64,000 nucleotides of DNA from Haloterrigena sp. KLK7. Lineage in GTDB: Archaea; Halobacteriota; Halobacteria; Halobacteriales; Natrialbaceae. The translations under genes were made by a program, and so were the position numbers. Below the pieces are notes generated by a model. That model was not told the origin of the DNA and made no database searches. It saw only the letters and a list, made by a program, of their open reading frames with translations. This document shows positions 57,199-61,600 of the stretch, one piece after another; the first letter of the stretch is position 1, and the number at the start of each line of letters is the position of its first letter. Location: NCBI RefSeq assembly GCF_037914945.1, contig NZ_CP149787.1, positions 3,224,001-3,288,000 of the forward strand, read 5' to 3'.

Positions 57199-57915
57199 CT
57201 ACTCCGCGACTGCGGCCTCGAGGCGCTCCTCGGCCTCGGGGAACATGACGTTGTTCTCCTTGTGGATGTGCAGGTGCATGTCCTCCTCGAGGAGCTGCAG
57301 CCGGTCGAGCATGTTGCGATAGCTGGTACACGCGCCCTCCGGGACCGCGTAGCCGTCGGTCAGCGAACGGAGTCGCTCGAGGTGGGCGGCGGCCGCGTCG
57401 TGTTCGTCCTCGAGGTGGTCGATCGCCTCGCGGATCCGCGCCTCCTCGTCGGGCGTCAGCGACGCCTCCCCGTCGAGCCGTTCGAGTTCCGGAAAGACGG
57501 TCTCCTCCTCGTCGGAGATGTGGTGGGAGACCTCGTCGGCGAGATCGAGAAACACCGATTCAACGTCGTGGAGTTCCGGACGGGCGTCGCCGTGGACGCG
57601 GACCACCTTTCGGATCGTCCGCTCGAGCGACGGCAACTCGTCGCGGAGGTAGTCGTGGTGGCGTTCGACGACGTCGTCGACGAGCGACGATATCGAGTTC
57701 CAGTCGTTCGTCTCGCCGTCGTTGTCCGATCGGGCCGCCCGAAGTTTCTCGCGGACCGCCGCAACCTCGAGGTCGGCGTCGGCACAGGCCCGCGCGAGCG
57801 AGGCGTCGCCGCCGCAGCAGTAGTCGATTCCGACGGACTCGAACACCGGCGCGAACTCGGGGTTCTCCCTGACGAGCGCGCCGAGTCGTCGCTCCGGATC
57901 GATTTCGGCGGTCAT
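57199..57915 (-). CDS. ric: Iron-sulfur cluster repair di-iron protein (Ric/ScdA/YtfE type)
   Basis: 238 residues. The N-terminal DUF542 domain (about 1-60) contains the Cys pair in GIDYCCGGDASLARAC. The hemerythrin-like domain (about 75-238) supplies di-iron ligands in VERHHDYLRDELPS, EVSHHISDEEETVFPELE, HLEDEHDAAAAHLERL and LHIHKENNVMFPEAE. Such proteins release iron to repair Fe-S clusters after nitrosative or oxidative damage. The first ATG is used; an in-frame TAA lies upstream with no start between. A palindrome resembling a DtxR-type operator lies 107 bp upstream. Confidence 0.92.
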   Translation of the reverse strand: MTAEIDPERRLGALVRENPEFAPVFESVGIDYCCGGDASLARACADADLEVAAVREKLRAARSDNDGETNDWNSISSLVDDVVERHHDYLRDELPSLERTIRKVVRVHGDARPELHDVESVFLDLADEVSHHISDEEETVFPELERLDGEASLTPDEEARIREAIDHLEDEHDAAAAHLERLRSLTDGYAVPEGACTSYRNMLDRLQLLEEDMHLHIHKENNVMFPEAEERLEAAVAE

Positions 57916-58154: not shown

Positions 58155-58895
58155 CTACTGATACATCCGCAGCGGCTGAGCCTGCGAACTCTCCTCCTGT
58201 GCGACCTGCTGCATCTGCTGGGCGAACTGCTCTCGCTTCTCGCGGATCTCCGCCGCGCGGTCGAGCAGCTCCTGGACCTCGACCTCGACGTCGGCGATCC
58301 GGCAGACGCCGTCCTCGAGGAGGACGCTCGCGGACTCGGGATCGGGGAACTGCGGGCTCGACTCGACGACGAGTCCGACGCTGTCGTAGTCGCGCTGTGC
58401 GGCCCGGTTGATGAGCGCGCCCGTCGGTCCCGTGACGACCCCGTCCTCGGGCGGCACGTCGATGTCGTGGTCCGCGAGCCGCTCGCCGGCGTCGCCGGTG
58501 GCGACGCCGTAGATGTCGGGCTCGTCCTCGCGCTCGGCGGGCAGCCCGCTGAGGTAGAGCGGGAGCGCGTCCTGCGCGACGATCCACTCGGTGAGACACT
58601 CGGCGACGGAGCCGACGGTGTCGGCCTTGATCGGGGCGTCGCTGCGCAGCGCGAGGAGGTCGTGCTCCTCGCTGGCGTAGATTCGGACCGGCGGCCGGGC
58701 CGTCCGATCGCCGCCGCGGTAGACGCCGACGCGGGGCAGTCCTCCGCAGTCGACGCTGGCGTAGTAGCGCATGTCGAGTTCCTCGACGAGGTGGTCGGTC
58801 GCGATCTTCCCGACGAGTCCGAGTCCCGGAAATCCCTCGACGAGGACCGGCTCCTCGAGGTCCATCTCGGGACCCTGCTGACGGATCTGTGCCAT
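58155..58895 (-). CDS. PAC2-family protein (archaeal proteasome-assembly chaperone-like)
   Basis: 246 residues. PAC2 motifs: PVLVEGFPGLGLVGKIATDH, LVEELDMRYYASVDCGGLPR, EHDLLALRSDAPI, VTGPTGALINRAAQRD and SVGLVVESSPQFPDPESASV. The C-terminus (about 205-240; EVEVQELLDRAAEIREKREQ, FAQQMQQVAQEESSQ) is a coiled coil. Archaeal members are related to eukaryotic proteasome-assembly chaperone PAC2 and to PbaA/PbaB-like proteins. The ATG at 58895 (MAQIRQQGPEMDLEEP) is used; a longer reading to 59030 is rejected. It is divergent from the RNA methyltransferase gene. Confidence 0.88.
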   Translation of the reverse strand: MAQIRQQGPEMDLEEPVLVEGFPGLGLVGKIATDHLVEELDMRYYASVDCGGLPRVGVYRGGDRTARPPVRIYASEEHDLLALRSDAPIKADTVGSVAECLTEWIVAQDALPLYLSGLPAEREDEPDIYGVATGDAGERLADHDIDVPPEDGVVTGPTGALINRAAQRDYDSVGLVVESSPQFPDPESASVLLEDGVCRIADVEVEVQELLDRAAEIREKREQFAQQMQQVAQEESSQAQPLRMYQ

Positions 58896-59020
58896 ACGCG
58901 AGACGTCCGTCGGCGCCCCCATAAAATCGAGGGCGGCGGCTACCGGGGCCACGTCCCGTCGATTCGGCCGCGCCCGGCGCTTCGAAACCCACAAACGCGG
59001 GGCGCTCGAATCCGCGGGTA

Positions 59021-59929
59021 ATGGAGCCACTCGAGCGGTATCGACCGATTATCGACGATTTCGACGCGTTCCTCGAGGCCTGCGAGCGGCCGCTTGGCAA
59101 CGCCGCCCGCGTCAACACGATCAAGGCCTCGGTCGAGCGAACGCTCACGGCCCTCGAGGAGGAGGGCCTCGCGTACGAGCAGGCCGACTGGAACTCCCGC
59201 GTGCTGCGCCTCGAGACGGGGTCGCCGGGATCGACGTGGACGTCGTTCCACGGCTTTACGCACGGGCAGGAGGAGGTCTCGGCGGTGCCGCCGGTCGTCC
59301 TCGATCCCCAGCCCGGCGAGCGGGTCTGGGACAGCTGTGCCGCGCCGGGCGGGAAGGCGACCCAGATCGCGGCGCTAATGGACGACCGCGGGACCGTCGT
59401 CGCCAACGACAACAACCTCGGCCGGATTTCGGCGCTGCGGTTCAACGCCGAGCGCCTCGGTGCGACGAGCCTCGCCGTCACGAACGCCGACGCGCGCAAC
59501 TACTCCCTGAACCGGTTCGACTTCGACGAGTTCGACCGCTCGCTCGTCGACGCGCCCTGTACCTGCGAGGGGACGATCCGGAAGAACCCCGACGCGCTGG
59601 ACAACTGGTCGGAGGGGGCCATCGCGTCCGTCGCGGGCGTCCAGAAGGGCATTCTCCGGCGGGCGGTTCAGGCCACCCGCGAGGGCGGCACCGTCGTCTA
59701 CTCGACGTGTACCTTCGCGCCCGAGGAGAACGAGGCGGTCGTCCAGCACGCCCTCGAGGAGGAGGACTGCCGCGTCGTGGACTTCGATATCGACCTCGAG
59801 TACTCGCCGGGACTGACCGAGTGGGACGGCGACGAGTACGACTCGTCCCTCGAGCGGGCGGCGCGGATCTACCCCCACCAGAACGACACCGGCGGCTTCT
59901 TCGTCGCGAAACTGGAGGTGACCGCCTGA
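59021..59929 (+). CDS. RsmB/NOP-family RNA m5C methyltransferase
   Basis: 302 residues. The N-terminal ferredoxin-like part (RPLGNAARVNTIKASVERTL, about 25-60) and a Rossmann SAM domain: VWDSCAAPGGKATQIAALMD (motif I), VVANDNNLGRISALRFNAER, SLVDAPCTCEGTIRKNPD (motif IV with its Cys) and VVYSTCTFAPEENEAVVQHA (motif VI, nucleophile Cys). Both catalytic Cys are present. It methylates cytosine-5 in rRNA or tRNA. It lacks the C-terminal PUA-like domain; the next gene, overlapping by one base, appears to supply it. Confidence 0.93.
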   Translation: MEPLERYRPIIDDFDAFLEACERPLGNAARVNTIKASVERTLTALEEEGLAYEQADWNSRVLRLETGSPGSTWTSFHGFTHGQEEVSAVPPVVLDPQPGERVWDSCAAPGGKATQIAALMDDRGTVVANDNNLGRISALRFNAERLGATSLAVTNADARNYSLNRFDFDEFDRSLVDAPCTCEGTIRKNPDALDNWSEGAIASVAGVQKGILRRAVQATREGGTVVYSTCTFAPEENEAVVQHALEEEDCRVVDFDIDLEYSPGLTEWDGDEYDSSLERAARIYPHQNDTGGFFVAKLEVTA

Positions 59930-60468
59930 TGACGGACGACTCCGACGCGGACGCGGCCGAAATCGAGCGAAACGACGGGCAGCGCTTCGACCGGCTGCCC
60001 GCGACGCCGGCCGAGCGGACCGTCGAGGGCCGGGTCAGTCGCGAGGAGGTCGTCGACTACTTCGACGATCGGTTCGGGATGTCGCCCGAGACGTTCGACG
60101 ACTACACGTTCTGGGAGAAGGGCGCCGGCAAGATCTGGATCTACGGCGGCGAGGCGCCGACGCCCCTCGAGATCGAGGCAATCGGGATGACCTGTCTGCG
60201 CACTCGGCAGGAACACTGGAAGCCGACGACGGACTTCGTCCAGCGGTTCGGCGGTCACGCGACTGACTGCGTGATCGAACTCGACCGCGAGGAGGCGCGG
60301 GCGTTCGCGACCGGCGAGGATCAGGAACTCGAGCGCTGGGAGGGCGACTGGGGCTACCTGATCGGGGCCCACGAGGTTGCAGGGCAGTTCGAGCCGCTCG
60401 GAATCGGCCTCTACGTCCACGGTGAACTGCGCTCGATGGTTCCGAAGGGGCGCCAGCGAGAGCTGTAG
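59929..60468 (+). CDS. PUA-like RNA-binding protein resembling the RsmF C-terminal domain
   Basis: 179 residues, starting in TGATG shared with the methyltransferase stop. After a short disordered acidic N-terminus (about 1-40), the protein reads FGMSPETFDDYTFWEKGAGK, IWIYGGEAPTPLEIEAIGMT, HWKPTTDFVQRFGGHATDCV, ELERWEGDWGYLIGAHEVAG and EPLGIGLYVHGELRSMVPKG. This follows the C-terminal domain of bacterial RsmF (COG3270-type), with the LG.G...G.LRSMVPKG end. It probably binds the RNA target of the upstream methyltransferase, as separate chains. DUF7122 is the haloarchaeal family name I recall. Confidence 0.78.
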   Translation: MTDDSDADAAEIERNDGQRFDRLPATPAERTVEGRVSREEVVDYFDDRFGMSPETFDDYTFWEKGAGKIWIYGGEAPTPLEIEAIGMTCLRTRQEHWKPTTDFVQRFGGHATDCVIELDREEARAFATGEDQELERWEGDWGYLIGAHEVAGQFEPLGIGLYVHGELRSMVPKGRQREL

Positions 60469-60559
60469 CGGACGGGCTCGAGTCGGGGTAGCGACCCCGC
60501 GCGGTTCACAGGCTGAAGGGCCATCTAGCTACTAAGTGAGCGGTGCTGGTAGCGCCCGT

Positions 60560-61600
60560 ATGAGCGACGAAGACGCCCCGACGGCGTCCCAGCCCGACAC
60601 CGGCCTCGCCGAGCGACTCGAGGCCGGCGAACTCGTCCGGTGGCTCTACCTCTACGGCGATCGGCGCCGCCTCTCCGCGATCCTTCTCGCCGCCGTCTTC
60701 GGGCTCTCGCTGCTGTTGATCCGGGCCGGGCTGATCACGCCCGCCGCGGCCGACGACGTCACGGCGCTCTCCGGAGCGCTGATCGGCGGCATGCTCCCCT
60801 TCATCACGGTCGTCCTCGCGATCAACCAGCTGATCCTCTCCGAGGAGTTCGGCTCGACGGGAGCGTTCTTCGAGCGCTTAGAGGAGACGTCCGAGTACCG
60901 CCGTCGGATCGAGGACCACACCGGCTATCGGCCGTCGCCGGCCGAACCGTCGGAGTTCCTCCGCGTTCTGATCGAGGCGAAGCGGAAGACGGCGCTCGGG
61001 CTGCAAACTATCTGTCGGGACGGCCCGGACGACGTCCAGTCGCGGGTCGACTCGTTCGTCTCGCAGACCGATCCGCACGATCGGGACGCCATCGAGACGC
61101 TCGCCGACGTCAGGTTCGGGTCCTTCGCCGTCATCTCCGTGATCCTCCACTACAACGATCCGTGGCAGCTCCAGATCGTTCGCCAGCTCCGGGAGTACCA
61201 CCGCGACTCCCTCCCGGAGCCCGCTGACGGGCAACTCGAGCGCCTCGAGGAACTGCTGGGCGACATCCACATCGCTCGGCAGTACTTCAAGAGCGTCTAC
61301 ATGCAACAGGAACTCGCGGACCTCTCGAAGATCCTGCTCTACGTCGGCTTTCCGACGCTGCTCGGCGGCGCGTTCGTCATCATCGCCTACGGGAACCTGC
61401 TGGCGCTGGGACTCCACCCCTACGTCTACGTGCTGGTGGTGAGCGCGACGATCACGGCCCTGTTCAGCCCCTTCGCCGTTCTGTTGCTGTACGTGCTCCG
61501 GATCGCGACAATCGCCCGGCGCACGGCCGCGGACTTCGGTCCGTTCGTCCTGCAACAGGAGCTCCCCGAGGAGGAGACCGAGACGCTCGAGTTCTCGTGA
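60560..61600 (+). CDS. Four-helix membrane protein of unknown function
   Basis: 346 residues. Cytosolic acidic N-terminus (about 1-35), two helices (RLSAILLAAVFGLSLLLI, LSGALIGGMLPFITVVLAIN), a long cytosolic part (about 90-255; FFERLEETSEYRRRIEDHTG, IEAKRKTALGLQTICRDGPD, RQLREYHRDSLPEPADGQLE) with helical character, and two helices (LLYVGFPTLLGGAFVIIAYG, YVYVLVVSATITALFSPFAV). Composition is normal. I do not recognise the family. The ATG at 60560 (MSDEDAPTASQP) is preferred to one at 60536 because the longer form adds a basic start. Confidence 0.75.
   Translation: MSDEDAPTASQPDTGLAERLEAGELVRWLYLYGDRRRLSAILLAAVFGLSLLLIRAGLITPAAADDVTALSGALIGGMLPFITVVLAINQLILSEEFGSTGAFFERLEETSEYRRRIEDHTGYRPSPAEPSEFLRVLIEAKRKTALGLQTICRDGPDDVQSRVDSFVSQTDPHDRDAIETLADVRFGSFAVISVILHYNDPWQLQIVRQLREYHRDSLPEPADGQLERLEELLGDIHIARQYFKSVYMQQELADLSKILLYVGFPTLLGGAFVIIAYGNLLALGLHPYVYVLVVSATITALFSPFAVLLLYVLRIATIARRTAADFGPFVLQQELPEEETETLEFS

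Follow-up and report, generated by a model that had tools for sequence, protein, structure and literature searches.

A putative two-chain m5C RNA methyltransferase with the domain order of bacterial RsmF in Haloterrigena sp. KLK7

The stretch of DNA considered here (the window) comprises 64,000 nucleotides (nt) of the Haloterrigena sp. KLK7 genome (contig NZ_CP149787.1, positions 3,224,001 to 3,288,000), and carries two overlapping genes, referred to below as A and B, at positions 59,021 to 60,468. Gene A encodes the catalytic chain of a class I RNA methyltransferase of the RsmB/F type, whose members form 5-methylcytosine (m5C), while B encodes a separate chain related to the C-terminal third of RsmF. 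Of the named loci fetched, that of Haloterrigena salina is the closest, with 96% identity in A and 92% in B. The locus contains the following features, in window coordinates:

59021..59929 (+), gene A, catalytic chain, RsmB/F-type class I m5C RNA methyltransferase, 302 amino acids (aa)
59914..59921 (+), Shine-Dalgarno motif GGAGGTGA within the 3' end of A, 7 nt ahead of the B start, read from the sequence
59927..59931 (+), TGATG, a 1-nt overlap of the A stop and the B start, in which TGA (59927-59929) shares its A with ATG (59929-59931)
59929..60468 (+), gene B, stand-alone pre-PUA and PUA chain, homologous to the C-terminal third of RsmF, 179 aa
59986..60264 (+), pre-PUA domain of B, residues 20-112 (Pfam DUF7122: residues 10-86), delimited for folding alone
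60229..60465 (+), PUA-like domain of B, about residues 101-179, with a mean pLDDT of 83-96 in ten-residue blocks from residue 101 on

The product of A passes the cut-offs of PF01189 (E 1.1e-52, 179.1 bits, cut-off 27) and TIGR00446 (225.7 bits, cut-off 210.45). It is a methyltransferase core that stops where the C-terminal module of RsmF starts: in a search of the Protein Data Bank (PDB) its residues 9-301 were aligned with residues 21-311 of the 479 residues of E. coli RsmF (2frx). The best match in that search was 1ixk, which we take to be a P. horikoshii protein. Two cysteines, C180 (in DAPC-T/S-C) and C230 (in STCTFAPEEN), are invariant in 26 of 26 aligned sequences and are presumably the catalytic cysteines of motifs IV and VI. 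A remains below the cut-offs of the equivalog models of E. coli RsmF (203.2 bits, cut-off 588) and Thermus-type RsmF (193.2 bits, cut-off 690), both of which describe the fused protein and have their cut-offs set accordingly. At a laxer limit a second PF01189 match was found in the same genome, on another contig, just above the cut-off (6.4e-6, 27.3 bits); its carrier is a 245-aa class I methyltransferase in whose translation neither cysteine motif was read, and it was rejected as a further enzyme of this type.

The product of B passes the Pfam model DUF7122 (PF23437; 6e-30, 103.9 bits, cut-off 27), and at E<=1 it matches one more Pfam family, PF13636, the PUA model of RsmF, and nothing else; with the NCBIfam RsmF model it gives E 0.056. 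At the same limit, all 42 of 42 haloarchaeal B proteins match DUF7122 and 33 of the 42 match PF13636 (best 1.7e-6), and in B relatives from other archaeal families the E values for PF13636 go down to 3.2e-18. RsmF was not among the PDB matches of the single B sequence. A profile of 21 B proteins, other archaeal families included, retrieved 2frx (3.4e-7) and 3m4x, a NOL1/NOP2/sun protein (1.4e-6), and nothing else at E<=10. When the B profile containing the other archaeal families was compared by hhalign with the C-termini of bacterial RsmF, a colinear alignment with a probability of 98.7 was obtained, its E value of 2e-15 being that of a single comparison with three RsmF C-termini and one short tail on the bacterial side. 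The family to which B belongs is presumably COG3270.

The structure of B was predicted by AlphaFold2 with a pLDDT of 75.7. The six best Foldseek matches of this model are all RsmF chains, two of them at E<=0.001, with 2frx at the top (4.5e-4). In a second look with VIA the model was matched with 3m4x (Z 9.6, 1.7 A, 73 aligned residues), followed by RsmF of T. thermophilus (3m6v, Z 7.9) and of E. coli (2frx_B, Z 6.9). The best of five models of the pre-PUA part predicted alone had a pLDDT of 82.4 (the others 71.5 to 49.6), and it gave no Foldseek match at E<=0.001. The VIA second look, the one comparison in which RsmF ranks first for this part, placed E. coli RsmF residues 329-407 at the head (Z 7.5, 2.3 A, 74 aligned residues), which is the stretch spanned by Pfam YebU_pre-PUA (329-405); a Z under 8 may reflect no more than a common arrangement. 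The runners-up were a chain of a human pre-60S particle (8fkt_NH, Z 6.5), presumably Nip7, and then MCT-1. Given this first place of the YebU_pre-PUA stretch and the colinear profile alignment, DUF7122 most likely represents the pre-PUA domain of an RsmF module that stands apart from its core, and the domains of B predict that it binds RNA. An earlier note on this DNA, made from its letters alone, had likened the B product to the C-terminal domain of RsmF, and the profile match to 2frx and the leading rank of RsmF structures for the B models bear this out.

The TGATG shared by the two genes, also pointed out in that note, was confirmed from the sequence; A and B of the window lie in different reading frames. 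Among the named loci, 80 in number and the best of 169 relatives, 40 have A and B overlapping by 4 nt and 38 by 1 nt, 78 in all; the two genes are spaced in the other two, L044 and L073, the latter of which comes from a metagenome assembly and looks frameshifted. The overlap recurs in 30 of 30 further loci of the order (L084-L113), a set that includes the window's own genome and some strains also present among the named loci. A Shine-Dalgarno match of at least 6 bases within 18 nt precedes B in 78 of 79 loci and A in 1 of 78, the control frequency being 1.8% of 20,773 same-phase windows inside A. The motif is not merely a by-product of the conserved end of A, since in four loci with a longer A C-terminus (L057, L058, L065, L066) it stands just ahead of the shifted B start. 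The valine codon within the motif is GTG in 67 of 78 loci, compared with 445 of 1,951 valine codons elsewhere in A.

Such junctions have been studied in Haloferax volcanii. Of its 2,511 gene pairs on the same strand, about 450 have a 4- or 1-nt overlap (PMC10666635), so that the A/B overlap by itself is ordinary; its conservation is not. Pairs that overlap or lie close together were assigned to subunits of a complex in 45.2% of cases, and spaced pairs in 5.6% (PMC10666635). Coupling was found for 13 of 14 gene pairs tested in H. volcanii and E. coli (PMC6728339), and termination-reinitiation at such overlaps has been measured for other H. volcanii pairs (PMC6728339, PMC10666635); a text search of the main text of PMC6728339 did not find HVO_1594, the probable H. 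volcanii counterpart of A. Haloarchaeal leading genes are rarely preceded by Shine-Dalgarno motifs (PMC6728339), which fits their absence ahead of A. The window locus has the two sequence features used to recognise termination-reinitiation pairs, a 4- or 1-nt overlap and a Shine-Dalgarno motif in the upstream gene. Coupled translation of A and B, as suggested in the earlier note, is thus predicted from the overlap and the motif, and their conservation fits it. A spurious open reading frame or a chance overlap is ruled out by the conservation of both B and the overlap. A programmed frameshift producing an A-B fusion was also considered and rejected; relative to A, the frame of B is -1 wherever the two overlap in the named loci (78 cases), and no slippery heptamer was seen at some junctions read by eye, a systematic search not having been made. 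None of the 80 named loci reads A and B in one frame.

The distribution of the two genes was examined in 392 genomes of the phylum, with B detected by its profile at E<=0.01 or by PF13636 at E<=0.001, and the methyltransferase by PF01189 at E<=1e-10. B was found in 156 genomes and PF01189 in 168; both occur in 155, PF01189 alone in 13, B alone in one and neither in 223. Of the 168 genomes with PF01189, 155 accordingly have B, as against 1 of the 224 that lack PF01189, and the sole B-only genome (G383), whose locus was not fetched, has a weak match with stops. All 81 genomes of the window's order have both, with PF01189 occurring once in 80 and twice in G124; this count rests on listings of the matches and then of the misses by kinship, where the first misses listed fall outside the order.

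Within the order adjacency was examined in 31 of the 81 genomes (L084-L114), besides the 80 named loci, and A adjoins B in 30 of these 31. Outside it 74 loci were fetched, 73 of them with B in the stretch, and A lies directly upstream on the same strand in 65. No fusion of A and B was seen in the 95 loci where they are adjacent (30 of the order and 65 others). These counts exclude L135-L142, which are second copies of loci counted elsewhere, and L196, where the contig ends and no B was found. The flanking genes, taken as a control for linkage, are less conserved: of 79 loci, 40 retain the divergent PAC2 gene and 4 the gene downstream. Replacement of archease by B is ruled out, since archease occurs in 368 of the 392 genomes and its distribution does not complement that of B. 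In the window's order an archease match is absent in nine of the 81 genomes (G018, G099, G109, G240, G288, G308, G326, G347, G374), and the other 72 have one.

The ancestry of the catalytic chains was examined in two trees. The first contained 48 catalytic cores, including 20 taken from the 65 loci with A next to B and another 20 from PF01189 matches among those listed, and the second had 44 rows, including four bacterial RsmF proteins (one of them a fragment), seven close relatives being left out. In both, the archaeal chains linked to B group together with bacterial RsmF, with a support of 98/95 in the second; 13 of 14 further archaeal paralogs and also E. coli RsmB lie outside this group. 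Several bacterial rows are long branches and their exact placement is unsure. Limosilactobacillus fermentum (L219) entered the tree with its longest open stretch only, and the C-terminal alignment with a 21-residue tail. In this plasmid record RsmF lies in pieces across more than one frame, as a decayed gene or a sequencing error would. The tree is compatible with either fusion or fission.

The substrate can be approached through HVO_1594, the one COG0144 member of H. volcanii according to Grosjean et al. 2008 (PMC2584109). In the same paper tRNA of this species has m5C at positions 39, 40, 48, and 49, and its rRNA is without m5C, an unidentified modified C in its RNA being also listed. In the 2010 gene-deletion paper (PMC3017900) the m5C peak is gone from bulk tRNA of the HVO_1594 deletion strain, the growth of which in rich medium is given as 0.0107 vs 0.0227. 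We infer orthology of HVO_1594 and A because 80 of the 81 genomes of the order have a single PF01189 gene and because A stands beside B in Haloferax loci. Also in favour of tRNA, a B-linked A of another family scores 467.2 bits with NF040814, the model of tRNA C49 m5C methyltransferases (cut-off 550); two others score 232 and 233. Since the deletion reportedly removes m5C from tRNA and rRNA reportedly has none, the substrate is most likely tRNA rather than rRNA; the pair would be a tRNA m5C methyltransferase with the build of RsmF, and for that reason the name RsmF would mislead. A search of the literature found no paper on DUF7122, COG3270, a split RsmF with a PUA domain, HVO_1595, or HVO_1593, and no experiment on B; HVO_1594 was found in two papers. 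The reading of the earlier note, an RsmF-like enzyme split into catalytic and RNA-binding chains, holds as far as the domain order and the grouping with RsmF are concerned, and does not hold as a functional identity with RsmF, as indicated by the distance of A from the equivalog cut-off (203 bits vs 588) and by the literature pointing to tRNA.

Taken together, A and B probably (at about 0.72) represent two chains of one m5C RNA methyltransferase with the domain order of RsmF, split between the core and the pre-PUA and PUA domains, and acting most likely on tRNA. That B is a subunit is suggested by its fused relative, the co-occurrence, the linkage, and the coupling signals. Chain A would bind S-adenosylmethionine (SAM) and methylate C5 of cytosines in tRNA; chain B would bind A and tRNA and set the affinity or the choice of site, a role ascribed to the fused module of RsmF. 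B would be translated by termination-reinitiation at TGATG or ATGA, aided by the Shine-Dalgarno motif inside A, with the consequence that both chains are made together. The formation of an A-B complex, this role of B, and an obligate need for B, the last already proposed in the earlier note, are predictions from sequence.

Several observations weigh against this reading. The match of the window B to PF13636 (E 0.066, 13.7 bits) is below the cut-off of 27.6, RsmF was not among the PDB matches of a B profile built from haloarchaea only, and the same profile compares weakly with bacterial RsmF (hhalign probability 42, E 4e-5; best hmmsearch E 0.005). The resemblance of B to RsmF is real despite these weak scores, and the profile similarity, whose absence the earlier note had named as the result that would speak against it, was found. 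The A of the window is far below the NF040814 cut-off of 550 bits (213.5 bits). PF01189 occurs without detected B in 13 of 168 genomes, and the co-occurrence counts are uncorrected for shared ancestry. L213, from a genome that is 84% complete with no detected B, falls inside the group of B-linked chains and RsmF, L216 and L217 were counted as B-linked in the second tree with B elsewhere in the genome, and if the first tree is labelled by adjacency alone, the state "B adjacent" needs 4 changes. No A lies in the fetched stretch of eight loci outside the order (L116, L127, L145, L157, L169, L173, L182, L195), and L114 (genome G134) is the exception within it. B apart from A in some genomes shows only that adjacency is dispensable. 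The nine loci with B away from A offer natural cases for action in trans. Lastly, the H. volcanii data cover HVO_1594 only.

The closest competitor to a two-chain enzyme, in our judgement an unlikely one, is that A methylates tRNA largely by itself, with the PUA chain as a helper that it can do without, in the manner of archease and Pyrococcus abyssi Trm4. That precedent (PMC6313347) favours it, together with an archaeal tRNA-guanine transglycosylase in which, to go by the title of a reference, the PUA domain is not required; against it, all 81 genomes of the order retain B alongside the methyltransferase, among them the nine in which no archease was detected. We give somewhat less credit to a reading of B as a Nip7/MCT-1-type factor that binds RNA or assists ribosome assembly independently, being co-expressed with A without forming part of the methyltransferase. 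Structures of the MCT-1 and Nip7 types do match the domains of B, a fold similarity still compatible with distant kinship to Nip7, and B persists apart from A in the nine loci listed above. RsmF-type chains nevertheless outrank them for both halves of B, narrowly for the pre-PUA part (Z 7.5 vs 6.5), B almost never occurs without a PF01189 gene, and no Pfam family besides PF23437 and PF13636 is matched at E<=1. The UPF0113 profile (Nip7 PUA) found nothing in the window B, and the two weak UPF0113 matches of the same genome, both below the cut-off, lie elsewhere. Finally, a true split RsmF methylating 16S rRNA, to which the grouping of the B-linked catalytic chains with bacterial RsmF and the nature of B as an RsmF C-terminal module would lend themselves, is improbable given the H. 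volcanii rRNA without m5C in a species with HVO_1594 as sole COG0144 member (PMC2584109, the unidentified modified C notwithstanding), the loss of m5C from tRNA upon deletion of HVO_1594 (PMC3017900), and scores of A far under the RsmF equivalog cut-offs, set as they are for the fused protein.

Among known systems the two-chain arrangement of A and B is closest to bacterial RsmF (YebU; 16S rRNA m5C1407; PDB 2frx, 3m6u-x), which has the core, pre-PUA, and PUA domains in the same order and a catalytic part in the same group; it differs in being one chain rather than two, in acting on rRNA where tRNA is most likely for A and B, and in the equivalog cut-offs that A does not reach. Archaeal Trm4 (P. 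abyssi PAB1947, H. volcanii HVO_1594; tRNA m5C), to which A is linked by the presumed orthology with HVO_1594, is treated as a single gene product, with archease as the known helper in Pyrococcus and a PUA partner unmentioned in the text at hand. NSUN6 (human and P. horikoshii; tRNA C72) is likewise an m5C methyltransferase with a PUA domain that helps to hold the tRNA (PMC6393295), but this domain is inserted in the same chain (PMC6393295). Compared with the B model, NSUN6 gives Z 3.8-4.1. Separate chains are also found in eukaryotic pre-60S particles, where A matches a Nop2-type methyltransferase in the entries 6elz and 8fkt and B matches a separate chain of each (6elz_l and 8fkt_NH, which we take to be Nip7). 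Nop2 and Nip7 probably contact each other directly; unlike A and B, with their most likely tRNA substrate, they are ribosome assembly factors acting on rRNA. One may speculate, as a tentative extension that we regard as doubtful, that the two chains are an obligate heterodimer, with B choosing the tRNA cytosines for the sole m5C enzyme of the cell, that RsmF is the fused form (or the archaeal pair a fission product) with a switch between tRNA and rRNA substrates, and that separate chains are an old arrangement, as in Nop2 and Nip7.

The pair is flanked by genes of other kinds. Downstream, at 60536-61600 (+), lies a gene for a 354-aa protein with hydrophobic stretches seen by eye and no Pfam match at E<=1, which follows the pair in 4 of 79 loci. 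Upstream, at 58158-59030 (-), a PAC2-family protein (1.9e-43) is encoded divergently from A; with its start as listed the two genes share 10 nt, and translation more likely begins further in, at MAQIRQQGPEM. Beyond it, at 57202-57915 (-), a protein with ScdA_N and hemerythrin domains is encoded, presumably a di-iron repair protein.

With the reading of A and B as two chains of one enzyme, DUF7122 gains a likely identity, that of the pre-PUA part of a detached RsmF-type RNA-binding module. The same reading predicts an unrecognised subunit of what is reportedly the sole tRNA m5C enzyme of haloarchaea, and this subunit may account for the way in which one enzyme picks several tRNA sites. It would also mean that one methyltransferase family has both fused and split forms, with different RNA targets.
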